In this document: positions 31,264-54,086 of the stretch, one piece after another
Position numbering within the stretch: the stretch's first letter is position 1
How the letters are laid out: the number at the start of each line of letters is the position of its first letter
Source of the DNA: Ciborinia camelliae
Taxonomy: Eukaryota; Ascomycota; Leotiomycetes; Helotiales; Sclerotiniaceae
Assembly (NCBI GenBank): GCA_025890175.1
Contig: JANPYM010000012.1
Coordinates: 913,388 to 977,387, forward strand
Direction: 5' to 3'
DNA length: 64,000 bases
Position numbers and translations under genes: made by a program
Notes under the pieces: model-generated
Seen by the model: the letters and a program-made list of their open reading frames with translations, nothing else
What the model was told of the DNA's origin: nothing
The model's database searches: none

Positions 31264-34200
31264 TCTTCTGAGCAGAACCAGAAACCCAGAAACAAGAGTT
31301 CCGATATCCCATACATAGAATCAAAACTTTTGATGAGTAAAGAATATAGACTCTAGGATCAGAGTACTATATCTAAGCTCTTCAAATACGGGAGCTCTAC
31401 GAAAACTGAGCCATACGGCATCTACAGGGACCATTCCATTTTCTGATGATTACTAGCACGAATATAAGTAATGAAATGAAGCGCAAGATGGTACAACGTT
31501 ACCGAACTAGAATGAACAAAGTACGAAGCTGATACCGAACTACTCTTTAATTAAAGATGGGACGTCGTTGTAACCCGACGTACTAGGTGTGGAGGACAGG
31601 AACTATGATTTCGAGGAAATGTCACACAACGACGTAAAATGCTAGTTTAGGAAGGAAACTTTGGCTACGTTTTGTCAAGGCCCTAATACTTTTACCCGTC
31701 ACAAATCTATTTTTGATTAGCGGCCAGTTCTATGACGGGATGATATGATCTAGAGATGTAATAAGGCTCAACAACTCCGAGGATTTTGTTGACTCGTTCA
31801 TCCCGTGGCACTGCCCCATTAGAATTGCAAGTCTACTAGGCTACGACGGATCCTCTCCCCCTTCTATCAGACGCCGAGAATTTTCTGATAACTACACAAA
31901 CCTTATAATTCAACGACCAGGAAACTCAGAATTACCAAACTAAAACACCAAGTAGTGGTGTGCCATCTCGACCATTACATATTTGTCCGTGGGTATGTAT
32001 GATGCATATGAGATTTTTGCACCGTTTCTTTGAATATCCACGTACATTGTTTCGATGACGGATATTCGCAAGACCTTTGGGGCATCTATTTGTGAAGTGT
32101 GGGGCCAGTATACCATCAATACGAGTATATGCAACATATCAAGTTTACGCGAACCGCACCTCGACATATCCCCTGGACCATCGAATCTTTTCTAAATGTC
32201 TAGGTTCAATTAAGCATCTTGTATTCCCCACTAGAGCTTTAGAGTATTGTAAATTTTAGTAACCTCCCCGATTACAAAAGAAATCTACAGCTCTGATTCA
32301 GTTGGCACCTTGAGCTTCCTACCGACATTAGCCCTCTTATACTAAAGCCGAGATAAACTTTCATCAAATCACAATCATAATAAGCGTGTTGTTGAACATC
32401 TTACTTTAGGTGCGAAGGAGATTTTGTCCATTTGTAAGATTTTTTAGCTAAGGCCGCATGTACGATTCACTAGTATCGCGATACTGATGGTCCAAAATAT
32501 CTATATAACATGAATTTCGTGGCCAGCAAAGAATCTTCCTCATGCAGGGAGTCGAATTCGACATATAAGGCGCTTGATAAGGATTGAGGGCTTCTATTTA
32601 TACACTCCTACTCCGAGTACGTTCGATGGTGTAAGGAGTTCACGGAGTACGGTGGAGCTGGGGAGGGAGAGAGATATGCTACTATGTGTACGATGAGGGA
32701 GGTACTGATGTCGGATTTTGGGATTAGGGAGGTAGATGAGGAGATGGTTTTCGGGGGAGGAGATTGACATCGGAAAAATTTGACAAATTCGATAGAGGGC
32801 ATGGCGTGGCCATTAAGAATTAAGAGTGATAGCACCAGAACGTTGCCCATTTCGATGATTTCGGCCAGGGGTAGCCGCTTAGGATGGGCAGTGATAGTGT
32901 AAGGACTTTGATTAGTTCTGCAGGTTCTTTGGGGTGTCCGAATGGAAATATGGTTTGGGTATTTGGGTATTTGGAACGCTTTTTTCTTAAAATTGCATGA
33001 AATTGGCTGGGAAAACGGATCAAGTGGATTTTGGCGTTCTGAGAGGAAGAAGGAAAGGAGTTTAGTTAAAAGGAGTTTTATTCATGGGAATAAAATGTAA
33101 GTTCATACATAGAAGGAAGTCAAGAAACTAAAACGAAAGAAAGATGAAGTTGTATACTAGTCGAACAGAAAAAAGAAAATACTTAAATTTTAATACTGTA
33201 CTCCATTCAGTCTCAGTCATTTACTTAAAGTACCATCTAAAAACACAACAAAATTCCAGAAGCCTGAAAACTTAACAGGTGGGGTCCTTGAAAAGGCTCA
33301 CCGGGAGCTAATAGATAGATAGAAATACATGGAAAACCCAAACCATCCAATCAATCAATAACCATCCCAACCCCCCCAAAAGCAAATCGATGAATCCATT
33401 AAACAGAAATTTCTACCACCGATGCTTAAATGGTGCTTAAAAATCTATGAACTCAAAAGACTATCTAGGTATCTATCTAGTAGGTATCCAACCACGAGAG
33501 AAAAATATCAACAGCAACCGAAGATTCCCCAAACTCACTCGCTTATATCGTTAGTGAGTGTCACTAACTGGTAGGTAGGTACCTATGCTACGCACGCTAC
33601 TCAGAATCTAACGCTCAGATCAAATTATGCTCAGCCTGAAACAAGATGTTGATATTTTCCACATGGATTGAAAGCTAATGAATGAATGAATGAATGCGAA
33701 AGCTAGTAAATGCTGAAATGAAACGTGGAGAGTATGAGAGTGCCGAGAGTGCCGAGGGTGATGAGGGGTACTCGGGGCTCTTTTGTTGTTGATACCTAGG
33801 GTATAGAAATGCTTTCTTCGAGAAGAACTTGGTGGATGGATGGATTTATGGATAGGAATTTGGGAATGTGGGATGGAGGTAGATATGGGTAGGTGTTGTG
33901 CGCAAATAAAGGGTCTGGATTTGGTGTTTAGAGTTTTGGAATGGATGCCAGTGGGAAAGTGGAAAAGTGGTACTGTAGGTATAGGTAGGTAGTATTTGGA
34001 TTCGAGGATCAATGTATGGGACGGATGAAGATTTGTAGGTCGACCTAATATTTCTCAAATGGTGTATTCACGATAATGGCAAGCCATGCATAGAAATCAG
34101 CACGATAGATAAGATCCAATACGTTCTTGCATTACTCATACATCACTACTTAGGTAAGTATTTGTGATAGCCAGCCATAATACTTGATTATATGTAGATA

Positions 34201-34405
34201 GCCAGCTATCTTATTATCTATCCGTCCCGATTCGAAGGAACCTCTATAATATAACCATCATTCTCATTATTGCACTTATGAAGTATGTAGACTTCTGCAC
34301 CGCATAATAGGTATTTTTGAATCTCGAATGCCAAAAACGCCACTTCTCTCATTATCCCTCCACATTAACACCCTCTCTAGCATATCAGAAAAGATCTCCA
34401 TCCCC
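31264..34405. other. large intergenic region
   Basis: About 3.1 kb with no supportable gene on either strand. Short repeats occur: TGAA runs near 33676-33696, GGATGGAT near 33833-33842, and TAGGTAGGTA words near 33570 and 33984. Confidence 0.5.
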
Positions 34406-35215
34406 TTAGAGTGCAAACGCGATAGGAACACCGACGGCGGCGATCATACCACCCCGAGCCAATCTCCTAGTGCTAGAGCCAGTGTATGTCGCAGGTACTC
34501 CAGTCGACGTACCATTTAGCCCATTGCTCGTAGTATTTGAATAGCCCTCATTGCTGCTGGCAGCAGGGCCATCCAACGAGGTGAAGTTTGCACAAGTGAT
34601 CCTCGTCTTGTTCGCAAAGTGCACAGTCACCGAAAGGTTTCCAAAGAAAGATCCCGAAGTAGGGAGTGTGGATGTGAATTCATCGACATAAGCAGTTTGG
34701 AAAGGATCGCTACTGATCTTGCCGTGTTTGCCAGCGAGATCGCCGACCTGACATGTTTGTGGGAGAGAAGGGTCGCAGGCGGGCACTTCTCCACGGAGGA
34801 AGGGATCCAGGTGGGCGAGGGTGCCGGTGCAGTTTCCGTCGGTGGGGACAGGGTGCGCGTGGATGTGGTAGGCTGGGTGGGGTTAGCGCGGGATGGAGAG
34901 AAATGTGCGTGATGGGAAGTACTTACAGAATGGTCCACCACTGGTGGGCAGGTTGGAGAATCCGACGTTAAATTGGATTCCAATACCATCGGGGTTTGCC
35001 TTAGCAGAGACGGAGCCTTTGACGTTACCGCGTGGGTCACTTGGGTTGAAGAACTGTGTCTCTGGAAGTGTGGCAACGTAGATTGGAACTACGGGGTTGT
35101 TTTCGGGGATGGTGGCATTACCCAAAGTACCGGTTACTGGATCTGTTGTGGTTTGCGCATTGGCAACACCGACTAGAATGGCCGCAAGGACTGATGGGAT
35201 CACGTTTGAATACAT
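34406..35215 (-). CDS. GPI-anchored extracellular superoxide dismutase, Cu-only type
   Basis: Exons 35215-34927 and 34872-34406 (GTAAGT donor, CACCCAG acceptor) give 251 residues. The junction creates GPFSYHIHAHPVP, the copper-binding HxH segment, which strongly supports the splice. Signal peptide at about 1-20 (IPSVLAAILVGVANA). Other probable ligands are His in CTGTLAHLDPF and His in SVTVHFANKTRITCANF; GDLAGKHGKI keeps the Asp/His region. The zinc-site His array and the electrostatic loop of classical Cu/Zn enzymes look reduced, as in Candida SOD5-like Cu-only enzymes. Cysteines that could form the subunit disulfide are present. The C-terminus is Ser/Thr/Asn-rich and ends in a hydrophobic GPI signal (MIAAVGVPIAFAL). 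Expected role: removing superoxide at the cell surface. Confidence 0.88.
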
Positions 35216-37960
35216 CTTGGTAGAGTGTAGATATTTGAATATATGCGGGACTTTCTTGTAAGATGTCCAGAAATATTCTTAAAGAAATTTGGGAGCGTAG
35301 AGATTTGGATATGTGTGAGGCTTTCTTGTAATGACGAGGAAACGATCTTAACAACTTATGTTGAACTGAAGAAGGAACGTTAGTATTCTCAAGGCTTTGT
35401 AAACATTCACATTAAAACACAGCCTTGTCTTAAAAAGGGTAGTGACATTAGATGTGAATGGTATTCAAGTGGAAACTTACCACAATCAAAGAGAATATTG
35501 AAATTGTTTGAAGAAGTTATTCTTATTCTTGTTCTTCCAAAAAAAAAAACAAAAGTGTATAATAAGTGACTGAATAGCTAGTGCGGAGGGGGTGAACAGA
35601 GGGATATATAAATTAGAGAGGCTGTGAATCATTCCAGCCTAAGGATTCACTTTTTCTCGCCTGGGTAAAGATCAACCCATACCTACCAGTGCCTCTGGCT
35701 ATCTAGGTTACACCGTGGGATGTACCCATGCCAGTGCCACAAAGCTTTTATTATTAGAGGCGTAGAATCGCCATAGGTGCGTATGACTACGTATGACTAG
35801 GTATCTGTAAGTGCAAGCGCAAGCGTTGAGAATAGTAAACCTTACCTAGGCTGAGGTTGTACGCGCTCCACTAAGGTTGTACGCCCTCCAAAAGAAACTT
35901 TGATTGAAGACCGGAAACTACGGCCATTCCCCGTGAACAAAAAACGATGGGTCCCGAAATATCAGTAATCAACCATTATGCCCGTTTCAATTTCAGTAGA
36001 GGGGGGTAAATTGTAAGGGATACAGTATATGCTTTCGGATCTTTCTACTTGATCTACCTACTTGATTCACCGTTTCATCGTTTCGTCGTTTCATCGCTAC
36101 GGCCCCCTCCTTTCAAAGTTTTGAGGTCGACGACCATATCAAAAGAAGGTGTGGTTGGTAAGTGTAGCATCAACATGTTGGTGATACCTGTAGTGCATAG
36201 TACATATCTCCTCCAACTGGTACAAACAATCATTTTTCATCCAGTAGTAACGTGAAATTGGAGATTTGATGTTGGAATTGTGATATTGTCATATTGATGG
36301 TATCCAATAGCATTGTGGTTGATATGTTGATCGAAACTCCCTTCATGGCTAAAAGAAGGTTTATACATATGTCGGGATTTGGGGTCAACATTAACTCACT
36401 AATTACTAATCAGGTACCTACCTACCTAGAGTAGTTAAGCTGTTCTTATGATTGAAACCCCTGAAAACCCCAAGCGTTTAGAACCCTGCGTCAATCATTC
36501 TGGGGCCCTACGAGTATTTGGGGAACGCTTTGATGGATCATGGTTGGTAGGATTATGGTTCCTATTATTTGTTAAGCTAGATGAGAATGTTCGTTGGTCT
36601 TAATTTCAAAAATAATGATATGGAAAAGAAATTGCAATATTGCTTTGTGTTTGCAAGTACCGCGCGCTACCTCGCTGTCCTTCTATAATTTCCTTACGAA
36701 TTGTATTACTTCACATAATTGTATAGTGGTGATATCTGTTGGCTGTCGGTGCCTGTGTTGGTACCACAGTAAGCGAATATGCAAGATGAGAGGCGCAGTC
36801 CTCAGTATGTACTATTCATAGTAGATGACTGCATATGCTGCCGCCAATACTACTGAATGAATTTTGGATTGTAAATAATTACCAAAGTTCGATACAAAGA
36901 GAGTTCTAAAGATACTGACTAGGCTAATGCCGACTCCCGGGTCGATTCGCCATTAGGTCTTTCGATATATTAGCTTTTCGATACAACCAGTTATCAGACA
37001 GAGGCAGCGTTTCACGAACGAACCTTCTATCCGAGCGAATTGCGGGTTACGAGTGATATACGACCGGGCCTTCATCGTTCGAACTTCAAAGTTCGAACAA
37101 TGGTAGTTTGTGATTCAAGCTTTTGCAAAGTCCGTGTCAATCAATTCGGACTTTTTGACAGGAGGCTTGGCAAATATTTGCAAATCGATTTTATTCCAAG
37201 AAATCAGACCGTTTACGCACATTTAAGTGGTTGGTGATATTGGCTGAATAGAAGAACAACATTTGGGGACGCTTACAGCATTAAACTTTTCCTCGGCAAG
37301 AAGAAAGGGGGAATCTAGATGGACATCGGAGTTCACCTTACTGACGAGTTGTCATCACAAAACCAGACCTGCGATGTATGGAATTGAAATATATTATGTA
37401 TCAATAACTACATTACCAATTTGACCCTCTCAGTTCCAACGTGACTCTTCACAGTTTGCCTGTTCTCGATAGAGAAAAGTCTCTTAAAGGGATTTTTAGA
37501 TTTCTGTTTTAGATTCAACATCAATACATTAATTGCGTAATAAAATCTTAATATTTTGTTTAAATCAAAATTCGAAGAAAAATAAGAATAAAAACATTCT
37601 TTATAAAGTTGAACACTTTTCAATTTTTAATTTTAAAGTTTGATATAATCTTAAGTTTCTTTTGATTTTATATCTTTATTAAACCTTTTATAGTTTTAGT
37701 GCCTTTGAAATAATTTTTATTAAAAAGGTCAATCTAAGTGGACAAAGGGTAGGTTAGGTAATATGTTTGAATAAATATTACATGATTTTATTAATGATTG
37801 TTAAAAAAAGTCAAAAAAGTTAAGAGAAAGAAGAAACCGGTACTGGATGAAGTCCGGCCCGTATAATAATGTGCCAACAAGCCTACCGCAAAAGAGAGGG
37901 TGTCGAAAAAGGTTATAAATAAGCTATTAATAGTACCGTAAAAACCTACTTATAATTAAG
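35216..37960. other. gene-free region, AT-rich at its right end
   Basis: About 2.7 kb. The first part should hold the promoter of the superoxide dismutase gene. No gene was supported. A perfect 10-base inverted repeat lies at 37077-37098. From about 37390 the sequence turns strongly AT-rich up to the minisatellite. Confidence 0.5.
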
Positions 37961-38695
37961 GTTCGTAGATTCGTAGATTCGTAGGTTCGTAGGATCGGAG
38001 GGAGGAGGTAGGATTGGAGGGAGGAGGTAGGTTCGTAGATTCGTAGATTCGTAGATTCGTAGATTCGTAGATTCGTAGATTCGTAGATTCGTAGGATCGG
38101 AGGGAGGAGGTAGGATCGGAGGGAGGAGGTAGGTTCGTAGGTTCGTAGATTCGTAGATTCGTAGATTCGTAGGTTCGTAGAATCGGAGGGAGGAGGTAGG
38201 ATCGGAGGGAGGAGGTAGGATCGGAGGGAGGAGGTAGGTTCGTAGATTCGTAGATTCGTAGATTCGTAGATTCGTAGGTTCGTAGAATTGGAGGGAGGAG
38301 GTAGGATCGGAGGGAGGAGGTAGGTTCGTAGATTCGTAGATTCGTAGGTTCGTAGAATCGGAGGGAGGAGGTAGGATCGGAGGGAGGAGGTAGGTTTAGA
38401 GGGAGGAGGTAGGTTCGTAGATTCGTAGATTCGTAGGTTCGTAGAATCGGAGGGAGGAGGTAGGATTGGAGGGAGGAGGTAGGTTTAGAGGGAGGAGGTA
38501 GGTTCGGAGAAAGGAATTGTACGATTTTTAGGTTTTTAAATTTGTAGGTTCGTAGGTTTGTAGATTTGTAGATTTGTAGGTTCGTAAATTTGTAGGTTCG
38601 TAGATTTGTAGATTTGTAGGTTCGTAGGTTTGTAGATTTTAGGTTTTAGGTTTGTAGGTTTGTAGGTTGTAGGTTTGTAGATTTGTAAGTAAAAT
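37961..38695. repeat. compound minisatellite (8-bp ATTCGTAG and 19-bp G-rich units)
   Basis: Two unit types alternate in blocks: ATTCGTAG/GTTCGTAG (8 bp, in runs of up to about eight) and GATCGGAGGGAGGAGGTAG (19 bp, in runs of one to three). After about 38516 the array decays into ATTTGTAG/GTTTGTAG units, consistent with C-to-T change. The block is flanked on both sides by strongly AT-rich sequence. One small ORF over it is an artefact of the repeat. Confidence 0.95.
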
Positions 38696-39819
38696 AGATA
38701 TATAAATTTTGTTGTTGCTACCCCTATCACCCAATTAAATTATTTAATTTTGAAAATTTTAACAACTTTTTCAAAATTGCTTATTTCGGATTGGGCTTAT
38801 CAATTTTCCGATCAAAATTTATTACTTTATATATATATATTATAAATTTGAAGAATTTCGAGTTGAAAAATTAACGAAAAAATATACTTAATCAATTACT
38901 ATTATATTATTTATCATCTACTATTTATTATATTATAATTTATAAACTATAAACTACCATAATAAACTATTATAGTAATCTATAAACTATAACGTTTTTT
39001 ATTTTTAGTCTAGTTTTTTATAATAGGAAATCTTTTATATTAGGAAATGGAAGCGAGATTCCTTATATAAAATTTTATGCTGAAGTTTATTCATACGGAA
39101 CCTATATTACTCCGTGGTATCAGGGCCCAGGCCAGGAGATCCTTGAGTAAGCGAATTGATGCTTCCATTCTGTAAGAATTGAAATAAAGGGGGCAAACTT
39201 CAAAGAGATAGAGCTAAAGCATTTGAAATAATATAAATAATATCAAGTTGACAAGGTGACAAGTTGATAACTCGATACCTACTAAGTATCTGGTAGGTTA
39301 GACATCGTAGGAATTCATTTCCCCGGCAAAATATGTCACGAGGAAGAATTAGATAAAAGAATCCAGTACAGTACTCCCTCCAATGCCTCGGAATTTGGCT
39401 CTGCAAACAGAACTTGCGATGGCGTTTAGATACCCTCGTGATGAATGAATGACGTGTCTTTCAATCGCAAATGAATAGAAAGAGGTCGTCTAAACTCCAT
39501 TTCGAGGATCAAGAAAAGAGAATAGGTAATTACTGTCATGATTTATACATCGTGAGATTCGTGAGGTGAAAAACACGTTGGAAAGTTTCAATCAATTTGA
39601 CAAGTGTGAATCTTGCCCGGGCGAAGGAGGATTTTGTAGCTTCGCTAGTGCCAAGCCTTATTCTAAGCTCCGACTTGCCGACTTTCAACGACAGCTTCAA
39701 TTCCATCATCACCAACCACCAACCACCGACTCTCACAACTCTATCGGAACTCCGCAGAGCTCACCCCCTTTCATTCGCCGCACATATTCGCTCGTAAGGA
39801 AAACCTCAACAACACCAAG
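38696..39819. other. AT-rich island and intergenic region
   Basis: 38700-39060 is almost only A and T, with ACTATTATA and TATAAACTA words. It is followed by ordinary intergenic sequence up to the V-ATPase subunit f gene. A TGGTATCAGGGC word at about 39115 resembles a retrotransposon primer-binding site, but no long terminal repeat pair was seen. Confidence 0.45.
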
Positions 39820-40246
39820 ATGAAGCCCGTCGTAGGAGTAATGCAAGCTTGGTCTTGGTTCGTTCCCCCATTTGCTACCTAGTGTTTAGCCTTCATTAAT
39901 CTCTAACTATTATGCAGTATTGTCATCTCTGTATTTGCTATTGTCATCCTCTCCATTATCGGGGCTCTCTTCAAGAGCAATAACCACGCACTTTTGGGTG
40001 GAAAGGAGGACCCTGTAGATGGTGCTGCGGTTGCAGCTACGGTTTTTTCTGCTGTAGTTGTTTATGCGGTATGTTTGTTCAAGACTCTCAATGGTCCCGA
40101 TGGAGATGGTCATTCGTATATATCGGTTTCTCCCCAATGTGCAAGCTAATTTATGTGCCAATCGTTAGCTTTTCATCGTCGGCTGCGGTTTCCAAGCTTA
40201 CCTACATTTCCGCGAAAATCGACGCGGAGCGATTTCCCTTTCTTGA
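39820..40246 (+). CDS. V-type proton ATPase subunit f (RNASEK / YPR170W-B family)
   Basis: A tiny three-exon gene that is easy to miss: 39820-39857, 39918-40068 and 40169-40246, giving 88 residues, close to the yeast protein. It begins MKPVVGVMQAWSC, then the first membrane helix IVISVFAIVILSIIGALF, a polar loop with EDPVDGAAVA, a second helix TVFSAVVVYALFIVGCGFQAYL and a short basic tail (HFRENRRG). This layout and the ALLGG-EDPxDGxAVAxTV region match the V-ATPase V0 subunit f family, related to animal RNASEK. The first donor is GTTCGT, a weak form, but splicing there gives the conserved AWSC-I junction. The role would be in the vacuolar membrane proton channel sector. Confidence 0.88.
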
Positions 40247-41933
40247 TAGTCGACTAGCAACCATCGAAGGCATATATGAGATACGCATAGAGTTGCGGGA
40301 TTGATTGAACGGCGTATGGTGTTCGTTATTTTGGACCATTTGATCGATGGAACGTGTTTGAAGGAGTGCTATGGGGGAGGGGCATGGAATAGAATGATAA
40401 TTACTGGTAATTGATCATATGAACTTTCACGGAAGACTCATTCGAGGAGCAGATACTGGCAAACTTAATCACGCCCCTGACCTGTCTACGTATTCTCGGC
40501 TGCGTCTGGTTGGGTAATTATTGGCGACTTTCATAAAGGCCGTTGATTGGTTTCCCATCAATATGAGATTCACGGATTATAATCGGAGGAATATCCTATG
40601 ATTTTGCTGCGCGCAATTCTATTCTCTATTCAAGATCTCTTCACAGTCCTACATTTCCGTTATGTGCATTGTCGCAAGACTTCCATTCTATTACAATTCT
40701 TATCGTCCCCACTGTGTCGCCGGTACTGCTAGTCACCACTATTGGTATTTTTTCCAGGAGCAATTAGCTGAACTCTTGGCTATCATCATATCCTACGATC
40801 AAGTCAATCCTGTCAATTGTTTGGGATATAGTCTATGCTCTCTTGTAGCTAGCATAGCTCTAGTTTTAATCCCAAATTTGGCTCTTCGGAGGACTACATC
40901 AATATCAACAATTTGGCATAACCTGCAAGCATATTACCGCAGTCATGTTTCTATATCTCTCGTGCTCTCAAATGATATCAAGCCACCTTCTAGCTAAACT
41001 CGAGAATCCAAAGAAGTCGCCAATATGATGGCCACAAAGAGTTGAAAGCTTTGAAGCCTTGCTTTTCTCATCAATTGGGGTGGCCCCAAGTGAAGTGTTT
41101 GAGCATATTGGAGTGAATGGATTGATGTTGGCTTGTTCTATTATTAGATACTCATGGGCTTTCACTAAAAATAGTGATTGCGAATCGATTCACATAGGGT
41201 ATTTTGTGGAATAGGGGTTTGGATTGAATACCCAAAGATCAAATCAAATTCACCAATCTTCTGTTAATATTGTTATATATCTATGGTCTTGCCTGTTGCT
41301 TCTCATCTTTACAGCAAGATGATATAAGGACTGATATTTCCAGATCCTTATGGGCCACTTCACTCTGCTGTATGAGGCCATCCTCGACAATCATATCATT
41401 GTTATGCCTCATCTCTGTGATTTGATAAGGTCCAATATCTATATTGTTGGCCTGCCTCTGTCCACTTGTATAAGGCTATGCTCAATGATTGTACCATTGC
41501 TATCCTTCATCTTTGTAAGTGTTCCAATATCTACCTTGTCGGTGTACCTTCCCTGTCCAATCATTGTTATGCCTCATCTTTATCCCTCATCTTTGCAAGC
41601 CGATACGTCTCAATATCTACCTTGATGGCCTACCTCTGTCCAAGTTTTCCTTCACCTAGCTCCATCTCGTCAATAATAATACAAACCGCCCTTCCGATAT
41701 TCGGAACATAAACAACTTTTCAACTTCTATAAACTCTCTTCTCAAATTCCTCGATCTCTGCTTCCTTTCTTCCCAAAACAACAAACAATCCAACCTCTAC
41801 CTTTCCACTTCCAGTCAAACAACAACACTCCAAGTCCTTCAAACACACTCTTCCACTCTATTCCACAATTCAAACACCTCAATCCTTCAAAATCCTACCC
41901 TTTTCAACTCACCTCACCTACTTTACGGCCAAG
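40247..41933. other. intergenic, with tandem repeat and CT-rich leader
   Basis: About 1.7 kb upstream of the repeat peptide gene. No other gene was supported. It contains a three-copy imperfect repeat (41394-41645) and, from about 41700 to 41930, a pyrimidine-rich CA/CT stretch of the kind found before highly expressed fungal genes. Confidence 0.5.
41394..41645. repeat. imperfect tandem repeat, three units of about 75-90 bp
   Basis: Each unit contains CAATCATTGTTATGCCTCAT-like sequence, then CATCTTTG, then CCAATATCTACCTTGT and GGCCTACCTCTGTCC. Units begin near 41394, 41487 and 41561. They lie 300-550 bases upstream of the repeat peptide gene. Confidence 0.75.
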
Positions 41934-42662
41934 ATGCATTTCTCAACCGTCATCAAGCTCTCCATCCTCGCTTTTACCTCCTTCTGCATTGCAGCCCCCA
42001 CTCCTGTTACTGTCCCAATGGGTGCAGCTATTCAGTACGCTCGCGCTGTTCAGGATTCCCCAATCAACCTCATTCAGCTTCCTGAGAAGCGTGATGGTCC
42101 TATCGATCTCATTCAACTTCCGTAAGTGTCCATTGGTTCTTTTATCTCACATTCCTCAATCTCAAATTCATACTCCATGTATTTTCAACTTGATAATCTA
42201 TATTTTTGTTTCCTCGTGTTCTACTGCTGAAAACTGTCTTTGATGCGCGGTTGCTGACTTCGTGATTTTTTTAGTGAGAAGCGTGATGGTCCAATTGACT
42301 TGATTCAGCTTCCTGAGAAGCGCGATGGTCCAATCAATCTTTTCCAACTTCCAGAGAAGCGTCAAGATTCCCCAATCAACCTCGTTCAGCTTCCAGAGAA
42401 GCGTCAAGACTCCCCAATCAACCTCATCGAGCTCAGCAACCGCGAAACCCTCAAGTACAAGACCATCCGCGCCCGCAATGCTCAAGATGCACCAATCAAC
42501 CTCATCCAACTTGATGAAGGTGAAGTCTTGGCGGCCAGACAAAATGATTGTGGTTCTTCTCCTTTCCAAAACCCCGATTGCAGTGCCGGTACGGGCTTGA
42601 GTGTTCCTACTATTGCTGTTATGGCTATGGCTATGGCTATGGCTGCTATCATGATGGTTTAA
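41934..42662 (+). CDS. secreted Kex2-type repeat peptide precursor (KEP)
   Basis: Two exons, 41934-42121 and 42275-42662 (GTAAGT donor, TTTTTAG acceptor), give 191 residues. Signal peptide 1-20 (LSILAFTSFCIA). Then come seven copies of a 13-14-residue unit: DSPINLIQLPEKR, DGPIDLIQLPEKR twice, DGPINLFQLPEKR, QDSPINLVQLPEKR, then QDSPINLIELSNR and QDAPINLIQLDEG. The first five end in Lys-Arg (52-53, 65-66, 78-79, 91-92, 105-106), the cleavage signal of the Golgi protease Kex2, so several short peptides should be released. The core has no Tyr, Cys or Trp, unlike ustiloxin-type RiPPs or the usual alpha-pheromone. The C-terminus has two Cys and a hydrophobic tail (171-191) that may be a GPI signal. 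The intron falls between Pro and Glu of unit two. Function unknown. Confidence 0.9.
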
Positions 42663-45523
42663 GAGGGCTTTTTTGTATTGGGATTTGGGATTGGAGGATG
42701 TTTGTGGGGTTTCTTAGGGGTATCGTGAATGGATGGATGAACATTTTAGCGGGATATCTTCACGGATGGATGGTTTAGTTTGAGATTCATGATACGCTCA
42801 AGGATTTCATTTCGTTTCTGCTCATTTCTTCTGCTCATAAACATTGCGCTTCTTACACATTGCTTTTTTCGGTATGGGATTCTACTTTTTTCGCATCATC
42901 TTTTGAGGGATGGCAGAATAGGTATTAGGGTGGATTACTTTATTTCATGCTTCATCAAATGGATTAGCATTTGGTAGAAAGGGAGATTTAGCGGTAATGC
43001 AATGCATGGTTTTCATAATTTTAAGCTTAAAAGGAAGTGACATCTATGCAGTCGTGATTCTATTTGTGTGTATAGAAGAATCATACATATATATGATGGG
43101 TTAATTCAAAGTGTTGATCATTGTTGATCATTCTCATCATCCATACCTATGATTAAAGTAAAGTAGGTACTATCAACGGTACATTGATTGATTGCATAGC
43201 CAAAATGCAATGCCAAGTGATAAAATGCGGGGTAACCCAATGCATCTCCATCAGCTCTTGCATCTCCCATAACACACAACCAAACCAAGCCAAACCACCA
43301 TGATTGATCATTCATTCATCAGAATCCAAACTATCCTGCAGAAAATCCGAAAAGCTACTCTCCCAAACAAAAATCCCACTACTCCATCCAGAATATCGAA
43401 ACACCACCCACTGCACTCCGATGCAGAACAAATTCCCACCTCATCACCCATCACATAGCATCGCATCGCATCACAACACATCATGTGTTATCCAGCCATG
43501 TGCGCATTTCCCAATCTGGTATCACCACGCCCGAGCGATTGGATAGCGGCACTACCGCCCCATCTGCCTGGGCCATCCTATATGGTAAATGCTGTCCTAT
43601 ATATTGATACCACTGTAAGCTTACCCCAAGCTTACCCAAATTCCAAATCCATCCCCTGCACCCACAATACTATACCATGACTCCATGAGATAATAACATG
43701 ATTATCCAAAGCATAAGACTTTTCTTCAAGGAGAATTGCTGGGTGGTTGGTGGAGGTGCGTGGATGGTATGGTACGTATGCGTGGTTAATCGTGGACTGG
43801 ATTGGATGATATGAATATCCAAGAAATCCGGGAAAAAGCCCAAACCCGAAGCCAACGCTTGTCTTACTCCCGAATACGTATTCTATTCTACAGTATCAAT
43901 TTGTATGATATGGTATATCCCCTCCCCCCAAAAAGGCTAAAAACACATGAACCGTTGTTTCAATCCCAGCCCGTGTGCGGGTCGGGAATCTCGGGACATA
44001 GAAGACGCAGATAGACGGTTTGTGATTTGTGAGCGATTTTTGTCCTCCTGGGAAACTGTGACTGTGGATTGCGAGTCGGTTTCGAGGAATGAGGGGTCGT
44101 GGACTCGCGAGGTTTATTGGATTAACATTAACGGGGGACATATAGCAGAGGTGGATGAGGTCAGAGTGACTCTCGGACCTAAGCGTCGTATGCCTCATGT
44201 ACCTCGTGTGTGCTTCGTAGGATTCGGATATGGATTCGGATTTAGATAAGGATATGCATGAGACTGTGATGGCGAAAACAATTATCAATACATGATGATT
44301 GATATAGGTAGGTATGAAACGATACATTCGGCCTTACTATCTTCAACCCAACAGTCAGTCTGGTGATTAATCTTATGCTTTGAAATCCGATTCATCCCAG
44401 TCTTTGCCCCCCGAAGATCAAAGCAAAATATCAGTCAGAAACCCGAAGTAGGATTCGGGGACAAGAAAAAACAGAGAAAAGTCCGATTCTAGCATGTTGG
44501 ACATCGGGAATTAGGTATATATCACATGAAATAATTTACAACGATTTACATACCTAGGTAATATTACGTATGATCGATGGAGTTGCAGCAGCCGTAAGGT
44601 TCCTCTCGTACCTACGTACCTACGTACTGAGTCGTGCCTGTACCAGCAAACCAGCAAACTCCGATAGCACATGTATATGCGAGATATACATGTACCTATG
44701 TACATCATATGTATCACCAGCTACGAAAACTGAAATCGCAACCAATACCCGGGATTCTGAATCTAGAACGATGTGCAGAACAAGGGGGGAAAAGGGGGGA
44801 TAACAAACCATACCTATATTATGTGATAACCTTATTTTATGTATAAAGATAGGTATGCATGCCAAAATGCATCGATGCAGGATGATTGGCTCTTCCCCCT
44901 CACCTAATATTTCTGCACCCAGTACGATAAAGATCCAGTTACACGTACATACATACTAGGTACCTACGTACATACACGATTTCCAAACATCCGACGGATA
45001 TTATGTTGGGAGCCTAATGAAAAGAAATCTTGGAACGACCAAATGCCGAAAAAGTACCTATTATTGAGTGTATTATACATGCATTACATGCTAAAACCAA
45101 CCAGCAGTGATCATGCATATGCAGTCTTCGCCTTCGCAGCACACAACAGCAACCAACCCAACGTACAACAACAAATTTACCACGATACACACGACCATGT
45201 ACATACATGACGAAGTATCAACGTATCATCTCACCAATAATCCTTCCTCGAAGCGCCTCCCCCATTACCACCCATACCACCCACTCCACCAAAAACTGCA
45301 ATTGATCTAGCGATATTGCGAAACCACGACTTGGTACCACAACCTTGGGCTGGCCACAACATTCATGCTAAAAATGACCGATCTACGGTTTATTAAAATC
45401 ACGTCCTAAGTTTACAAAGCATGCTTATATGTCCAAAAACTGTCCCAAAGAAGCATCATATGATCGTTCCAAGCATTCGGAACCGATCCCGAAAATGCAA
45501 TGCAACCAAGCACGGTATGATCA
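42663..45523. other. intergenic region
   Basis: About 2.9 kb between the 3' ends of the repeat peptide gene and the aminotransferase-like gene. No gene was supported. GTACCTACGTACC words occur near 44608-44630 and 44960-44975. Confidence 0.5.
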
Positions 45524-47672
45524 TCACCCCTTGCTCCGGCCCTTTACAACCTTATTCAAGCCCCAAAAACTTTTGGCTTTCGATAACGTCTTTTCCGGTC
45601 TTTTCCCCTTTTCCTCCGTCGCCCGTGACTCCGATTTTGCCTTTTCGTTTTCATTTTCATTCGAATGCCTTCGTTCCCGGTTTTCGGGCCAAGTTTCGTG
45701 GATGCGTCTCTTGTTAATATCGTCCCAATATTTCAATTCCGTGGCGGACATCACTATTGCGCTATCATTTGATCCGGTTGAAAGATGATGAACTGGCGAA
45801 TGGTACGTTGTTGAATGACTTGTCCGTGGTCTCTCGCGAGTAATCTCATAATCATACATTTCATGTCGTCGTAGTGGACGGTCCCTCGGGTATTGTTTCA
45901 ACTCCATGTTGGTGGGAAGAAACTCCCTAATAGGCCAATTCCCAGGAACTTTTACGACAACCGGGCAAACGACCCCCTGACTTCTGACTTTGGATGATTT
46001 ATTTTGGGGTAGCTCCTTAATGATAGCTGTTTGTCCACCTAGACTCAAGTTTATGTCTTCAATAAATGTTTCCTGCATGAATGCGAGAAATATTTCGACA
46101 TCAGAAAGGATTGACATGGCTCCTAAGCTGGCTCGCACCACGCCCGTAGGCTTACCATTGATTATCTCAGTGTTGTCAGATTCGCTGCAGCGATGACCGG
46201 CTGACCAAGCTCGCTTGAAGTGCCAGGGTGCTACCTTGAGATAACTTGCGATGCCCCCAGGATTGCAAAGCCCCCCAGCTCTTACATAAATGTCTTTCTT
46301 GTTGGCTAATTGTTCTACTGTCGTATACGGGACGTAACTACCGTCCGGGCGTAGAATATTGAAGGCTATAGTAGCACCCTGGGTAGTGGCGTCGGTATAA
46401 GGTTGGGTATTTGTTGCGTCCTGGTAAATTTCGCAAACAGGCCGGCCATTAGAGTGACGAATATCTGATAAGCCCTCGTAGAGACGCCGAGTAAGGAACA
46501 TGGTATGCTTGGATATGTTGACCATTGAACCATAAAGATCACGGTGCACATCGATGGCACAGCCAAGTGCAATGATTGAATGGAACGGCAATGTGCCATC
46601 CTCTAAGCCATCATGAATCGTGGCATCTTTTCTGTGGTAAGATGCTTCATGGAGTACTGTCAGAGATGACACTGTGCCGCCGCCAAAATATTTACGCCAA
46701 GTCAAGATATGCGCTGATTTTCTGCGAACTATCAGAGCTCCTAAATCGGGAAAGCCAAAGATTTTGTAAAATGAAAGGACAGTAAAGTCAGGGGCCGCTT
46801 CCGGATCACTGAAGTCAAGTTGGGTTGTTGTCGCGAGGCCTGCAGCATCCAAAAGGGAGTAAGTATTCTGGTGTGAAATGCGAGTAGATCTTCGTAGTTT
46901 TTTACTCCAGGAGAGTGGTAATCGACGGCCGGTCATATTTGATTGACCGGGAAATGCAAAGATTCCTGGCGTTTCATCGTCTTCCCGTCTCCCCGGAAGA
47001 GATCTGTAACCGAGTAACCAATCCTCCACTTCCTGATCGCTAGTGAAGCAGTGATGTTGTCCATTTGTATGCTCTCGTGGACCAACAAGACTCGTATGAG
47101 CATCTTTATGATAGCCGTACCAAAATGACCCTGATGTCGAGCTCTCTAGCGCAAGATCTCTGAAGCTTTCTGCAACCAATTTGATCGCTGCAGTAGCATT
47201 TGCGGTGAAGACGAGGTCAAAATGCGCAGGATCGGCTCCAAGAAACTTCAATGCCTTTTCACGGACAGAGTCAACGACAAATCCAGAAAGTTGCGCTGGA
47301 GCTGAGGCTGAGTGTGGATTGCCAAAGAGGTTTCCCATCATCTCACTGGAAAATTTGCCAATGAGAGACTTTGCGTGTACAGCTACTCATATGATTAGCA
47401 CTGCTTAATGTAGATAGTCCCCAAAGACTAAGAGAAAGAGTCTAGCCATCTGAATAACAGAAAGCCCGAATATTAAAAATGATGGCATAGAATCAATGGG
47501 AACAGGAATGATGTGGTAACGTCTTACTTGTGCCCGCATGGTCAAGATATGTTTTCCCTGTCCAGATTTAGCGATTGGAAGTTCTATCAGCTCGGAATCT
47601 TTGTGTGAACTTACCTCTCAGCATAGGATACTCTTCTTCTCTGAAGGCCTCGACCTGTCGGTTGTATGCCAT
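45524..47672 (-). CDS. molybdenum cofactor sulfurase-like class V aminotransferase, no MOSC domain
   Basis: Exons 47672-47615, 47557-47528 and 47382-45524 give 648 residues. The small second exon encodes TYLDHAGT, and splicing rebuilds the family motif YLDHAGTTVHAKSLI, followed by NLFGNPHSAS. Other family marks are VFTANATAAIKLVAE, LLDAAGL, the PLP lysine Lys236 in LSFYKIFGFPDLGALIV, and Cys402 in VRAGGLCNPGG, the region of the persulfide-forming cysteine. Fungal Moco sulfurases (HxB type) are usually longer and carry a C-terminal MOSC domain; here the last about 150 residues are instead charged and low-complexity (ENENEKAKSE). It may be a paralogue that supplies sulfur to another target, or a protein that has lost MOSC. 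Upstream exons beyond the chosen Met are not excluded. Confidence 0.85.
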
Positions 47673-50600
47673 AGTGTTGAATTTTTGAAAATTCGGTTGT
47701 ACATAGAGACAGTTACTAAAAAACGATGGTAACTGCCCACTTCTATATGTACAAGTTCGAAGGACTCGGAGCAAGACGGGATAAAAGAAAAAAAGCGCCC
47801 AGACTAATGGTAGCCTGTGACCTAAGAGAGCTCTAAACAGCTGATATTGGCAATTCGTTAACTTGGAGGCACAGCTGTGAGCATTCAGATGAGAGTGAAC
47901 GTTGGCCATGTTGGAGCAGTGGAGCAGGCTCAACGTCATGGAGCTTCTGGAGCGAGCATGGAGGGCTAATATTAGTCATCTAACGTACTGTTTAATCCCA
48001 TCGTTTTGAACCTGTAAGCAGCTGGGGCGTTGTCTTCAGTAAACTCTAAATGCTTACTGTATTAGAGGTAATAAGCCCAAAGCCATGGTAGAAAACGCTG
48101 ACGTGCCGTGTGGAAATAGAACCGATAGCAATTGGATGTCCCAAAAGGGTAGTGGACCGATCATGGAATGGCTGTGCACCAGCTATGGGATGATGCCTAT
48201 CACAAAGTGGTTCCTTTAGCGGATATACCCGCTACCACAAAATTTCTAGGCGGCGCCCGTCACTGGCTGCCATTTGTCCAATTGTCATGTTTCTTGCGAG
48301 TACCAACTGTAGTGTGGACCAACGCAATCAATATTGGACAGACCGCGATCTCGTAACCAAACCTGACGATCTGGATTTTTCAACGGGTGACATTCCATTC
48401 TAACTATCCCATTTGTTAACCGTGTGAATAATTTGAACGAACCGAGCGCAAAAATTCTGTCCAGCTGAAGGAAATAAGTCCAATTCAATTGTAAACAATG
48501 GCACCTTGGAAATTTTTAGTGAACATCGTGATCGATTCATAATTCATTACCCTAGTCATTGAGTAATATTTGTTGATTATAGACCCATGAACAAACTATT
48601 GATCTCAGGGATCGAGATATAAATTGGATGTATGACAACTTCGAAACGTCAATATTACACACTAAAAAGCACTTTTGTTGAAGATTAGAACGCCCTTTCG
48701 AGCAGATAGTTCCACAACGCTGAAGAATCTCCACTGAGCCGTGCATTCTTCGACGATGATTGATGACGTTTCAGAAATATCTCAGCTTGGTATGCAGTGC
48801 CGACATGGTAGTGGATGTTGAGCCAAGGGACATACTCATGATGATGAAAATTCAGCCTTGCTGTGGTAATCAATAGCGTGGTACAAGGGGGTACAAGTGA
48901 GAGATAGACGAGTTCGAGGCTCACGATATTTTCGAGTAGGTACCCAGGTATCATTGTTCCTGCGTTTGATCGTTGATAAGCATAAGCGCTTATCAGTGGG
49001 GAAAAGCTCCCAACGATACTGTGATTGTCAAGTTCAATAACGCTTCGATGCAAAGCAAGCGCTTGCGATAGACATCAGTCTGCGCTGAATGAAGCTGAAT
49101 GATGTTGATTGGTCGAAAATAGATAATAGTTTGCGTGAGGTCGGCGACCATGTCATGAGGTCCCCGATTTATAATATATTGTTATCGTATACAAAGAGCT
49201 TCTCGGAACATACAAAAAAAAGGAATATGTCGTGACAGTCGAGTGTGAATTAAAGTTTAGGTGTTACACGCCTCAAGCTTGCACCGCAACATCGAGTTTG
49301 TGGCGATGTCAATCACGTGGATGTGTGAGCTCCTAAGAATCTTTTTAGACGGAATGAAAGTGCTACAGTGTGGGCACGTCTTTCAAATCTCTCAAAAAAT
49401 GTCCGACTTGGTTGAACTAAAATCGGTATGTCTCCTTTGGGAATCCAGTACCGATAGAGCAATGCCCAATAAAACACGGCAAGAGAGATATGGTGAGAGG
49501 CTCGCCATGTTGATCAAAACCTGTGGTGATCATTTCCACTCATTCAATTCGCATTTAGACGTTGATTATCGGTGTCAATCCATTTGGTGATTCAGTATTG
49601 AATATCACCGTAAACGGCAGTAAGGGCGATCAGGCATGCTCTCTGACTGGTAGTAGATTCCCTCTGTCTCTGTAATTAGTGACCAAGACCTTTGCCCACC
49701 CAAATCTTACCACCCTCTTCAGACAAGCCATAATCAGTTACCCTACCTCCAAGTACTTTCCGTAAACGGACCTCGTGGAGCACGGGACGGTCTATGTGAA
49801 AGTCTGCATACCCAAGATTGGCAAAGGGGATCAGACTCTGCCACAAGACCTTCTAGCAAGGGGAAATCATGGCACTGTCTGTCGTAAGGTCTCCAGTCCG
49901 TATTCCAAATACGTGTAGGATCTCCGTGATCATGTATCGGTCGAACATTGAAAGGACTTTCATCTTCCGAAGCTCAGACAGAATCCCAGGACACTGGTCG
50001 ATGTTGAAAGAGGATTGTTCATCCGATAGTTAATGCTATATGCACCTGATGTGATATCTTCCACTGTAAAACATTTAGTCTCGAGGTCATATACGTTTAT
50101 TTGAATTGATCTTTGGCATACTCATCTTGCCCAGTCAAACCTTCTTTTATCCTGCTATGCTTTGCGAAGCTTGAACGATTGTTGAATTTGATCTTTAAGA
50201 AGGCCCCTCCACTGCGAAGAGATATACAAAAACTACGTGGAGTGCAGTGTGAAAAACGTTGAATCGAATGCCGACATCCATGCTATATGAGAAAACTGCT
50301 CCCGCCGGCACTTGGCCTGCATGATATACCTTCGGCGATTGAGTCCGGCGACTCTGATATTCTCGGAAGAATTCTGGATGGTCAAGATGTATTTAGACAT
50401 CTACGGGACAAGGAAAGCATGCAGGCAGGGTGCATTCTGCGAGGAAGTCGACCTGACAGTCAATTGTTATTTCTGCTGTGTAACAAACATGCAAGAAATT
50501 GATATTCGGCCTGAGAAGGCCGCACATTGGCGGCATGAAAGTACATCAACCGACCACCAACTAAGAAGAAGGAAGAGCAATGCGACGCTGCAATTCCAAA

Positions 50601-52473
50601 CGTGCAAATTACAGTGAATTGATCAAGAACTTAATTTATTAGCCTGGTGGTCTACCATGGCCAGTATAGACCGGATATCCCTTGCTAAACACGACAAATG
50701 CGGACATGCTGGCGCTGAATATTATGGCAAGAGAATTGGGTAGAGCTGATATGGATAAGAGTTTTGATATACAAAGTAGAACGATATTCAACTGAATATT
50801 ATATTGATGTTGATTTCGAGCTGCCTGCAAAGCACAAGATCGGTACAGGCAAGAACACGATAAAGATCCAGATATGCGTGAATATCAAGATTGCTACTGC
50901 AGCGAACATGACGGGATAGTCCGATAGCACCCCCATTCCAGCTTTTGAGTAATTTGATATGCATGGGAACTTGCATGAAGTCCCTATTCTATGCATCAAT
51001 CAAATGATATTCAAAAGTTCCTTTTGAAAGTAAATCCGGTCCCTGCTGGCACCACGACGTATGATCGTGAATCGACGACGTGAATGAAATGTCTCATGTT
51101 CATGTTTCTCGATGTCTATAAAATTACCTAAGCAAGCTCTGTGTAAGATCCACAGGAGTTATCGTGCGTTAGTTGTGTACCGCATCCTCGTGCTTTTGAA
51201 GCAGATGCAGTGTTCCAAATGTGATGACTGCCAATTATTGTCATCTCAAAATAGTGACACTATGCGGTGATTACGTCAAAACGGCCCTGGCATCTATTTA
51301 CCTTCATTCGTACATGACCGCAGATGTCAATCAGGATGAAACAAATAGTAGTTCAAGGCCCAATTTTTGGCGTCTCACTAAGATTTCCGGCCCTGCGGCA
51401 TTAAAGAGACTAAATCAAATCGGAAATATACGAAAAGAGCCATGAGGGCTGGGTGAAGATCGTAGCCTGGCCGAAGAATACCCCAAAAAGATGCCAAACG
51501 AGGAGGAAGGAATGTCTCACAATGATTCGCACGAGGTATGTAATCGCATCCGGCACTATCATGGATGCAAGGTCCAAGTTCATTTTTAGTGCGGTCGGAT
51601 ATTAGTATCATGCTGGCACTGTTCAGCTTAGTTTCCTCGCAAAGCTAAGACGATCCAGGAACAACAGATGTACAGTCGAGCAAATAAGTTATTAAGTGTG
51701 GACGATATGGCTGTCATCCCACCCCTCTAGTTTTCAGTGAGACTTTCTAGATGTTGACGCGTGCGGTTCCTGCAGATATTTTTTTCCAAAACTCCTAATT
51801 CTGCGGTCAAAGACTGAGCATCGTGATTGATATCCCCGCCATTAATGGCTGCCTAAGGATGAATTCCGATTGGCACCAAGGTTTTCATCACCGTTAAAGG
51901 CTTCATGCATCAAGATTACGTGGAAAATGTTGAAGCATAATGCCCTTAATTATGATCGTCTGAAAATCCATTCTTGACACAAGTCCTCTGGACCTGGAAG
52001 GAAAAGATTCAGGCAAGCTAAACCAAGACTTTTGCTTATCAGATTGAAAATCGGATAGATACGACTGTATGCTTCCAAAAATGGCATTGTGATGATAATA
52101 AGCTGGAGGAATTTGATTGTTTGTCTGATCGTATTCGCAATAAGCAATTCGGTGGATTTACCTCCAATACGGCCACCACGGAAAGTCCGAGGTGATGTAG
52201 TTGACCATCTTCACGAAAAACCAAAGAGCGACATTCGTTGTTGGTGTATGAAAAAGATTGAAGAAGGTATGTCGCATCTGCTCATGTTCTTTAGAAAAAG
52301 GTCGTGAATATTGCCGAATCTTCGTCTGCTTTCTGCATTCCCTTGCCCTTTCGTCTGTCATGCTATCCGCGACCCTGCTATGGATCGTCTCGCATCGTCT
52401 CAAAATATCAAAGCGAGCCCTGTGCCGTGAGAAATATATATATTCCATTGGTCAATCGGCCCGTCCAGGGGCT
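47673..52473. other. long region without an intact gene
   Basis: About 4.8 kb. The first part should include the promoter of the aminotransferase-like gene. Many short ORFs occur on both strands but none shows a domain, signal peptide or convincing splicing. One stretch (49680-50095, minus) looks like a decayed coding sequence. Confidence 0.5.
49680..50095 (-). pseudogene. possible decayed protein-coding fragment
   Basis: Protein-like sequence appears in pieces in different frames on the minus strand. One reads VYDLETKCFTVEDITSGAYS, the next (about 49976-49743) RPIHDHGDPTRIWNTDWRPY and FPLLEGLVAESDPLCQSW, and the last (to about 49680) VTDYGLSEEGGKIWVGKGLG before a stop. Each piece runs into stops, and no splice sites join them well. 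I do not recognise the family. It may be a relic of a gene, or chance; confidence is low. Confidence 0.28.
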
Positions 52474-53010
52474 TTAGGTCTCGAGCCTTATGGTCAATCC
52501 AATCAGTAAACAATAAGCCACAAGACTCAGCGTCGTCAAAATAACCACGGCATTCCCACTGGTCCTAAATTTCTTCCTTCCCATACCATCCCCATCGATT
52601 TCGCTGAAGAATTGCCTGTTGCCCTCATACCTCCTATACAAGCTGACCATTAAAACCCCGGCTCCATATGTCGCAAACAATGCCCCGATACTGTAAAATT
52701 CGGCCGTAAAGATCTTCAATACCACCAAAGCGAAACTGAATTGTCCCAAAGCGGTCCGTATATATGCTCCCTCAAAGGTTCTCTGCGCAGCTCGAATTTC
52801 CACAAGTCTATATGTTTCCCAGAAAATGTCAGCCAATACGTACAAATAGGGTAGATACATAACGTAACCCCGCATCCCGCCTTTCGAGGCTGCGGAGAAT
52901 AAAAAGGGGACAAACTCTTGCGCCGTTAGAATGACGGATCGCGCTCGATGTAAGCGTAGATGTAATCTATCTTCCGGATGGGGCTCCAGTACATTCAGCA
53001 TGGAGTTCAT
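52474..53010 (-). CDS. DUF202-like small membrane protein
   Basis: The ORF is open from 53232 (252 residues), but I place the start at 53010 (MNSMLNVLEPHPEDRL), giving 178 residues, because the upstream residues look non-coding and the context of this ATG is reasonable. Hydrophobic segments are GYVMYLPYLYVLADIFW, FSFALVVLKIFTAEFYSIGALFATYGAGVLMVSLY and AVVILTTLSLVAYCLLIGLTI, so about four helices. The segment EIRAAQRTFEGAYIRTALGQFSFALVV resembles the DUF202/YidH pattern (ERTFLAWIRTALA). The role is unknown. If the longer start is right, the extra N-terminus adds 74 residues without a clear domain. Confidence 0.65.
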   Translation of the reverse strand: MNSMLNVLEPHPEDRLHLRLHRARSVILTAQEFVPFLFSAASKGGMRGYVMYLPYLYVLADIFWETYRLVEIRAAQRTFEGAYIRTALGQFSFALVVLKIFTAEFYSIGALFATYGAGVLMVSLYRRYEGNRQFFSEIDGDGMGRKKFRTSGNAVVILTTLSLVAYCLLIGLTIRLET

Positions 53011-53232
53011 GGTGAAAATAGAGGTTGTAGGGGCGCCGGCAGAGGTAAATGAGATTGGATAAATACCTCGAACATACCGATGAATCGGCCCAATCCGTGA
53101 GAAGACATAAGGTTCCAAGGTTACCGCAAGTAATATATACCTAGAACAAGGGCATTTGGTGGAGGCTTTTTCCGAAGAATTCAGAGCGAATGAAGAGGAG
53201 TTTAGAGCACGCCACCTCCAGCTGCATTCCAA

Positions 53233-54086
53233 GGTTTGGAACCCAGGCGGAATGGATTACCTAAGAGCCACTACTTATGCCTGAGGCAAGAAGTAGATGA
53301 TTCGACGGGAGGTCCAGGTGCTGGTCCACGTGCAGGTGAGGTCCACCACCTACCACCTCGATCTAAATCATGCATTCGATAAATATCCCAATAGATTTCA
53401 CACATATATAAATACCTAGGTAGGTACATAAAGATATATAAAAGTTATTTTTTGTTTATTTTGATTCTTTTAACTGTGGGTGGGAAAGTAGTCGTATACT
53501 AATACTAACTCCCGCTACGGAGTATATATCTGCGGTTTGCTCATACAAAATGAGAAGAGATGAAGCTAGGTACCAATGTATCTGCTTAATCCCCGCTTTT
53601 TGGATAATGCATTCATTTCCCTTTCCTTTCGTTTTGTCTAGGCGCCGGCATGAGATTACCTAGGTGCATCCGCTTTGATATCTCCAAAAAGCAAAAAGCG
53701 CTCTCTCTTTTTCCTCCTAAAAATTCTAGAAAACCCATTATTCAATCCAATCCATTTCATATCGTTTTCGCATCAGAAGGTCCCGGTTGTTCCGAGGAAA
53801 GAAATTCTCAAACTTTCTGTGTTCGGTATATACAAAAAGGCGCTTTCGTCTTGTTGATGTGGTCTTCGGTGAGGTTACATTTACAATCATGCTGGTGAAA
53901 AAGCCCTTGTCGCCCTCGCTTTTCCTCCCGCCCTTCCCCCGCTCACATTCTTCCCCAATCGCAAAACTCGCAGGTGTCGATGTATGCTGGAAGAATAACC
54001 AATTTTCCATGCGCCAATAGTCCAGAAACGTAACCGTGATCCATGATGTGCTGTTGTTTGATTGAAATAATATATTCCTTGCTCCG
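53233..54086. other. intergenic region
   Basis: Between the DUF202-like gene and the 3' end of the Zn2Cys6 gene. It contains TACCTAGGTAGGTAC near 53413. No gene was seen. Confidence 0.45.

Follow-up and report, generated by a model that had tools for sequence, protein, structure and literature searches.

The gene at 41934-42662 on the + strand of the window (the 64-kb stretch C4:913388-977387 analysed here) encodes a 191-residue precursor, in which a signal-like start and a pro-region are followed by seven repeat units with five KR sites, a stretch free of dibasic sites, a stub bearing two Cys residues, and a hydrophobic end. We regard this protein as a Kex2-processed repeat protein (KEP) of Sclerotiniaceae, from which Kex2 would free linear acidic peptides of 11-12 residues and of which a GPI-held stub would remain; our confidence in this reading is somewhat better than even. 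As far as found, the family is single-copy and limited to Sclerotiniaceae, and a peptide with a conserved amino acid sequence and a likewise conserved surface-type stub make the gene a concrete target for deletion and peptidomics. If the stub is anchored, the gene would represent a KEP that leaves a part of itself on the producer cell, for which no example was found in the available text of PMC6339444, PMC7329392, and PMC9769878.

Gene structure and repeat array

Exon 1 (41934-42121, +) comprises the start codon, the signal-like residues 1-20, the pro-region (residues 21-40; APTPVTVPMGAAIQYARAV), unit 1, and unit 2 as far as ...IQLP, with its last codon split by the intron. The intron of 153 nt (42122-42274, +) runs GTAAGT...TTTTTTTAG and contains GCTGAC, which begins 22 nt before the intron end. 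Its removal restores PEKR of unit 2, and exon 2 (42275-42662, +) then supplies the remaining array, units 6-7, the Cys stub, the hydrophobic tail, and the stop codon. The joined exon frame gives the product of 191 aa; without splicing, the frame terminates at the TAA within GTAAGT. Three homologous ORFs recovered by a profile search (P0006, P0007, and P0008) all stop at ...DGPIDLIQLP, namely the residue that ends exon 1 of the window gene. As this common endpoint is what is expected from an unspliced donor, we took it as independent support for the intron, of which both position and phase appear to be common to the window gene and P0006-P0008. The coordinates, reading frame, and intron were recovered as in the original prediction.

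The units take the form D[SGA]PI[ND]L[IVF][QE]L, and PEKR closes five of them. They start at residues 41, 54, 67, 80, 94, 108, and 134 (steps of 13, 13, 13, 14, 14, and 26), with KR at residues 52, 65, 78, 91, and 105, in agreement with the earlier description of seven units with a period of 13 stretched to 14 and with five KR sites. The motif, with the leading D omitted, occurs seven times in the window protein and never in 20,000 shuffled versions of it. Units 1-6 with the five KR sites span 42054-42443 (+, intron included), and unit 6 (QDSPINLIELSNR), a basic spacer, and unit 7 (QDAPINLIQL) together occupy 42405-42512 (+), where dibasic sites are absent. As predicted, Tyr, Trp, and Cys are absent from all seven units; the Cys residues are located at positions 18 (in the signal), 155, and 165. 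Basic residues are likewise found in none of the seven nine-residue cores. The precursor is completed by the Cys stub RQNDCGSSPFQNPDCSAG (residues 151-168; 42537-42590, +) and by a C-terminus that is hydrophobic and, by a home-made rule, GPI-like (residues 169-191; 42591-42659, +).

The nucleotide differences between the units are mainly silent. Over nine codons, the between-unit comparison gave a pS of 0.64, a pN of 0.13, a dS of 1.4, and a dN/dS of ~0.10, the last being an indication rather than a test as the unit pairs within a gene are non-independent. Variable sites were found at nine of the nine third codon positions, five of the nine first positions, and one of the nine second positions (P ~0.001 for random placement). 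Thus, the peptide is conserved among the units. The unit copies are, to judge from silent sites near saturation, old, and the peptide has been kept nonetheless. A pattern scan of nine proteins yielded 44 units, in which D precedes the pattern in 37 and Pro stands at position 2 in 37, both being places that the pattern left free. A dibasic site lies within 6 residues after 26 of the 44 units, a single Arg within 5 residues after 10, and neither after 8, albeit three of these 8 are cut off at an ORF end.

Homologues and block-by-block conservation

Two protein searches detected eight homologues, every one with E <1e-18; exact shared words were needed and the second search scored only 7996 candidates sharing most words, so that distant relatives may be missed. 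The S. borealis sequence (P0001) is 60% identical across 91% of the query, the B. porri sequence (P0002) 61% identical, and the S. trifoliorum sequence (P0003), whose record is partial and extended upstream, 48% identical. All of these three species belong to Sclerotiniaceae, on which basis the window is assigned to this family, and P0004-P0008 are five further homologous ORFs. A protein search with the tail only, which again depended on exact shared words and is weak for that reason, returned the source protein itself alone among three candidates and thus revealed no wider family of such tails. Two classes of units were recognized, ...PIDLIQLPEKR and ...SPINLVELSN(K)KR, both of which occur in S. 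borealis and also, alongside variants, in B. porri.

Mean pairwise identity, in which the alignment of the repeats is partly arbitrary, was 0.47 for the signal, 0.62 for the pro-region, 0.67 for units 1-5, 0.77 for unit 6, 0.45 for the spacer, 0.68 for unit 7, 0.32 for the linker, 0.81 for the Cys stub (261 residue pairs), and 0.47 for the hydrophobic end. The stub is therefore the best conserved block, although it is shorter by one residue in P0001 and P0005. The two C-terminal Cys residues and the GPI-like tail were present as predicted, but they had been put down as an oddity of a peptide precursor, which does not fit a region holding the best conserved block of the protein. The home-made GPI rule looks for a small-residue attachment site, a short spacer, and a hydrophobic C-terminus; five of six homologues passed it (P0004 failed) versus 4 of 1536 ORF ends, a background that may include the end of the gene itself. 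We infer from these features that the C-terminus is GPI-like. By eye, the wording of the stub in the relatives, CGSSPYQNPDC, resembles CGRPGQPC.

Unit 6 is KR-less in all of the six aligned proteins, ending in NR, or in NH in P0004, and its columns are ungapped; P0004 carries a 3-residue insertion in this unit. Since the KR is lacking in all six, we regard unit 6 as a conserved KR-less unit rather than a product of recent decay. The original prediction stated that the last two units had lost the Kex2 site: KR is indeed absent at units 6-7, but the decay that this wording implies is at odds with the uniform lack of KR at unit 6 and with its high identity.

The dibasic positions (overlapping pairs counted) number 5 in the window protein, 10 in P0001, 6 in P0002, 5 in P0003, 3 in P0004, and 0 in P0005. 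In S. borealis, B. porri, and the window protein, most units are closed by KR. In P0003 and P0004 the arrays are degenerate and the stub is intact, with EKH and EKN in the places of KR in P0004. P0005, a protein of 106 aa on an 806-base contig, possesses one unit, no dibasic site, and the full Cys stub and tail in one uninterrupted frame; it might be incomplete given the contig size, yet the frame opens with a signal-like start and continues into the tail. The array is thus not essential to every member. P0005 may have arisen by contraction of the array or may preserve the ancestral state, and it seems that some lineages let the array contract or degenerate but retain the stub.

No Pfam family was found in the window protein; of the five homologues scanned, two gave matches, none of them above the level of sub-threshold noise. 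NCBIfam gave one noise match, in one of six members, and the single match of a PDB profile search (E 1.6) was disregarded. AlphaFold2, run on B. porri P0002 with seven other homologues, yielded a mean pLDDT of 42 and no confident fold, with helices only at residues 3-19, 124-127, 138-155, and 175-190 of the P0002 model; such a picture is expected for a precursor with a signal and a hydrophobic tail. The N-terminus of the window protein is hydrophobic with CIA|APTP discernible by eye, and the helix 3-19 of the same low-confidence model lies at the corresponding end of the B. porri homologue.

Predicted processing and alternative readings

Cleavage by Kex2 after KR and removal of KR by Kex1 are established (PMC6339444, PMC9769878). 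KEPs are defined by at least three tandem repeats, each of 8-100 aa, between KR, KK, RK, or RR sites (PMC7329392), and units 2-5 of the window protein, 11-12 residues each, lie between KR sites. By the definition in the available text of PMC7329392, the window gene is a KEP gene, subject to the signal-peptide call. The earlier proposal of a secreted Kex2-type precursor releasing near-identical short peptides is supported, with predicted products of 11-12 residues. The precursor would enter the ER and be cleaved by Kex2 after the five KR sites, and trimming by Kex1 would then yield DGPIDLIQLPE (two copies), DGPINLFQLPE, and QDSPINLVQLPE, the N-terminal Gln of which could cyclise. Unit 1 would remain attached to the pro-region unless cleaved at Arg37. 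The remainder, units 6-7 plus the two-Cys stub, would be displayed at the surface by means of a GPI anchor, with further cuts possible at single Arg residues (SNR, RAR, and AAR|QNDCG). KEP-derived peptides that are linear, bear pyroglutamate, and are apparently cut at single Arg were reported (PMC9769878), and the single-Arg products described there would suit these three sites.

As none of the predicted peptides starts with XA or XP, trimming by STE13 is not expected. The genome encodes a single Kex2-type P domain. The soluble peptides would most likely serve extracellular signalling, either among fungi of the same kind or towards other organisms. The three predicted peptide sequences have calculated neutral monoisotopic masses of 1208.63, 1241.63, and 1351.70 Da (17.03 Da less for the pyroglutamate form of the heaviest), carry a net charge of -3 to -2, and show hydrophobic moments of 0.25-0.32 at 100 degrees; these moments are weak, so that the surface activity entertained in the original prediction found little support and an amphipathic surfactant was rejected. 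Against our preferred reading stand the single unit of P0005, which has no dibasic site, and the degenerate arrays of P0003 and P0004. A further point against it is that unit 6, after which there is no Kex2 site, is nearly as conserved as the stub, and the release of peptides would leave this unexplained.

The ranking of the stub above the units (0.81 vs. 0.67 for units 1-5) raises the possibility that the product proper is the Cys stub held by GPI; the array would then be a removable propeptide or spacer, and the freed peptides would have no role of their own. P0005, with the stub and tail but one unit and no KR, and the degenerate arrays beside intact stubs in P0003 and P0004 fit this view, and a Kex2 peptide of Candida Ywp1 was proposed to be a spacer (PMC12578311). 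On the other hand, a mere spacer need not hold PI[ND]L[IVF][QE]L at such a low between-unit dN/dS, nor would it have to retain KR at the ends of most units, as is the case in S. borealis, B. porri, and the window protein. We therefore consider the stub-only product possible but rather unlikely. Still more tentatively, and with doubt prevailing, both parts may count: a two-product precursor would supply soluble acidic peptides and a GPI-tethered two-Cys stub on the producer surface, which act together. The stub would then, for instance, label the producer or let the producer's own signal dock there, and the lineages of P0005 and S. trifoliorum would lose the peptides and keep the stub.

Tandem repeats and GPI ends are frequent in fungal wall proteins, and units 6-7 are without a dibasic site, both of which would agree with a repetitive GPI cell-wall protein that stays uncut and carries its KR pairs incidentally. 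We give little credence to this explanation, as all five dibasic pairs of the window protein are found at unit ends and none within units, no Ser/Thr-rich stalk is present in the window protein, and dibasic pairs recur in the relatives though the residues preceding them change (PE, SN, PK, SK, TE, and PS).

A signal, a pro-region, and KR-separated repeats are also the architecture of precursors for mating (alpha-type) pheromones, but we see next to no chance that the window gene encodes one. Its cores are devoid of Trp and Cys, XA or XP follows none of the five KR sites (DG, DG, DG, QD, and QD follow instead), and WCGRPGQPC-type precursors were found elsewhere in the genome. C7:163800-166800 harbors a WCGRPGQPC gene with 13 copies and KREA/KRDA-type trimming sites, and C6:489500-492500 a second frame with 4 copies (one being WCGRPGQLC), three of which follow long Ser/Glu/Gly-rich spacers; one further single pattern match, on C3, is a different peptide. 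With two such precursors elsewhere, the role of the mating peptide looks taken, and the earlier exclusion of an alpha-pheromone holds. Precursors of a-type and h-type pheromones have a C-terminal CaaX, and this candidate was rejected because the window protein terminates in AIMMV.

The earlier note had likewise set the protein apart from cyclic peptides of the ustiloxin type, and our results are in accord with this. A dikaritin-type RiPP precursor could be cyclised by UstYa (DUF3328) proteins encoded elsewhere, and the genome does give 58 UstYa-family match rows (57 over the cut-off; these are at the exon level and stand for fewer genes). None of the 58 falls in the window, the sole match on the same contig is at C4:2080715, >1.1 Mb away, and no Tyr exists in any of the seven cores. 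We thus regard this origin as highly improbable.

With known KEPs the window gene shares a signal-like start, dibasic-separated repeats, and products of 11-12 residues, and the class of 9-24 residues is the commonest in most Dikarya (PMC6339444). A UstYa gene is located near 22% of KEP genes (PMC7329392), and the window gene, like most, is without one nearby. In contrast, nothing comparable to the conserved Cys stub and the GPI-like end appears in the available text of PMC6339444, PMC7329392, and PMC9769878, in which no words beginning with 'GPI' occur. The core PI[ND]L[IVF][QE]L is absent from the conserved KEP motifs named in the portion of PMC6339444 covered here, of which the supplementary tables may list it, and SBOR_3760, EAF01_009255, PINLIQL, PIDLIQL, PINLVEL, and PINLVQL were not mentioned in the literature searched. 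Among 7878 fungal KEPs, PMC7329392 describes types common to Botrytis, Sclerotinia, and Rutstroemia (its Table 2); the repeat logos and member lists lie in its figures and supplements, so that the gene family may already be counted there. The functions of KEPs are largely unknown (PMC9769878).

The closest precedent found for the combination of a peptide and a GPI anchor is Rbt1 of C. albicans, a GPI-anchored protein; two of its KR-flanked peptides (61-72 and 227-242) turned up in culture fluid, and the former was active and dependent on the KR sites (PMC12578311). Rbt1 belongs to a hyphal-wall family and gives two different peptides, whereas the window protein has tandem copies and a small stub, and we liken the two by architecture, not by sequence kinship. 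Ustilago maydis Rep1 is likewise a Kex2-cut repeat precursor, and its peptides control hyphal wall properties; however, they are 37 residues long (PMC6339444), while those predicted here are 11-12 residues, acidic, and weakly amphipathic. With the ascomycete alpha-pheromone precursors, including those on C7 and C6, the window gene shares secreted KR-separated repeats, but the WCGRPGQPC core and the KREA/KRDA sites of C7 are theirs alone.

Genomic surroundings and the C11 patchwork

The nearest ORF with a Pfam family encodes a class-V aminotransferase on the opposite strand (45527-47386). Among 30 of the 113 stop-to-stop ORFs of at least 90 aa in the window, Pfam families were assigned to 7 and nothing to 23; those found were aminotransferase V, SIR2, a sub-threshold kinase, pro-kumamolisin, Zn2Cys6, DUF5672, and short-chain dehydrogenase. 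A biosynthetic cluster was considered and dropped, as these 30 ORFs gave no sign of one, though multi-exon genes may be missed in such a scan.

In the genome of origin (46.2 Mb, 27 contigs), the gene is present once; a 106-bp shred on contig C11 is the one further trace of it and was rejected as a second gene copy, as it lies within a patchwork. Where sampled (single shreds at 55 kb and 316 kb, a tiled stretch at 147-155 kb), C11 (536,084 bp) looks like a patchwork of ~92-base shreds that match other contigs. Within the examined C11:146000-155000, 82 tiles cover 7176 of the 7659 bases of C11:147342-155000; they were picked greedily from 91 non-self match rows, nine overlapping rows being dropped. 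The tiles are of 37-154 bases (median 92), with an identity to the source of 96-100% in 68 and of 83-95% in 14, and they derive from both strands (44/38) of 18 other contigs and none from C11. Of the 81 joins, 65 bring together tiles that overlap or lie no more than 3 bases apart, the mean overlap being 3.2 bases, a value inflated by alignment overrun.

Three window segments were matched on C11, namely 41975-42080, 53713-53847, and 55363-55415. The search of window 44001-64000 against the genome listed two perfect matches, each of them on C11 (at 55 kb and at 316 kb), with two of three candidates scored and the self match unlisted. Extrapolated to the whole genome, the 188 bases matched within this stretch of 20,000 amount to ~430 kb, which is not far from the 536 kb of C11. 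The search of window 24001-44000 was swamped by a dispersed repeat (39 of 152 candidates scored, the known shred unlisted) and is uninformative either way. Five of 15 source places lie in open frames of at least 300 nt vs. 42% of random segments, and there is thus no sign of an mRNA origin for the shreds. C11 also holds dispersed repeats longer than a tile, suggesting that it had time to take up transposons. C11 is possibly a whole accessory chromosome of genomic confetti, and possibly an artefact of the library or assembly. No description of such a patchwork appeared in the titles or abstract openings among the literature matches listed.

A dispersed repeat of ~1.25 kb (37876-39120), with a minisatellite inside, lies 2.8 kb upstream of the gene and recurs at >30 places in the genome, four of them on C11, with long matches of 71-82% identity. 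The window further contains a direct tandem duplication of ~1.7 kb, of which the two copies (10293-11992 and 12003-13704) are 99.9% identical over 1702 aligned bases.
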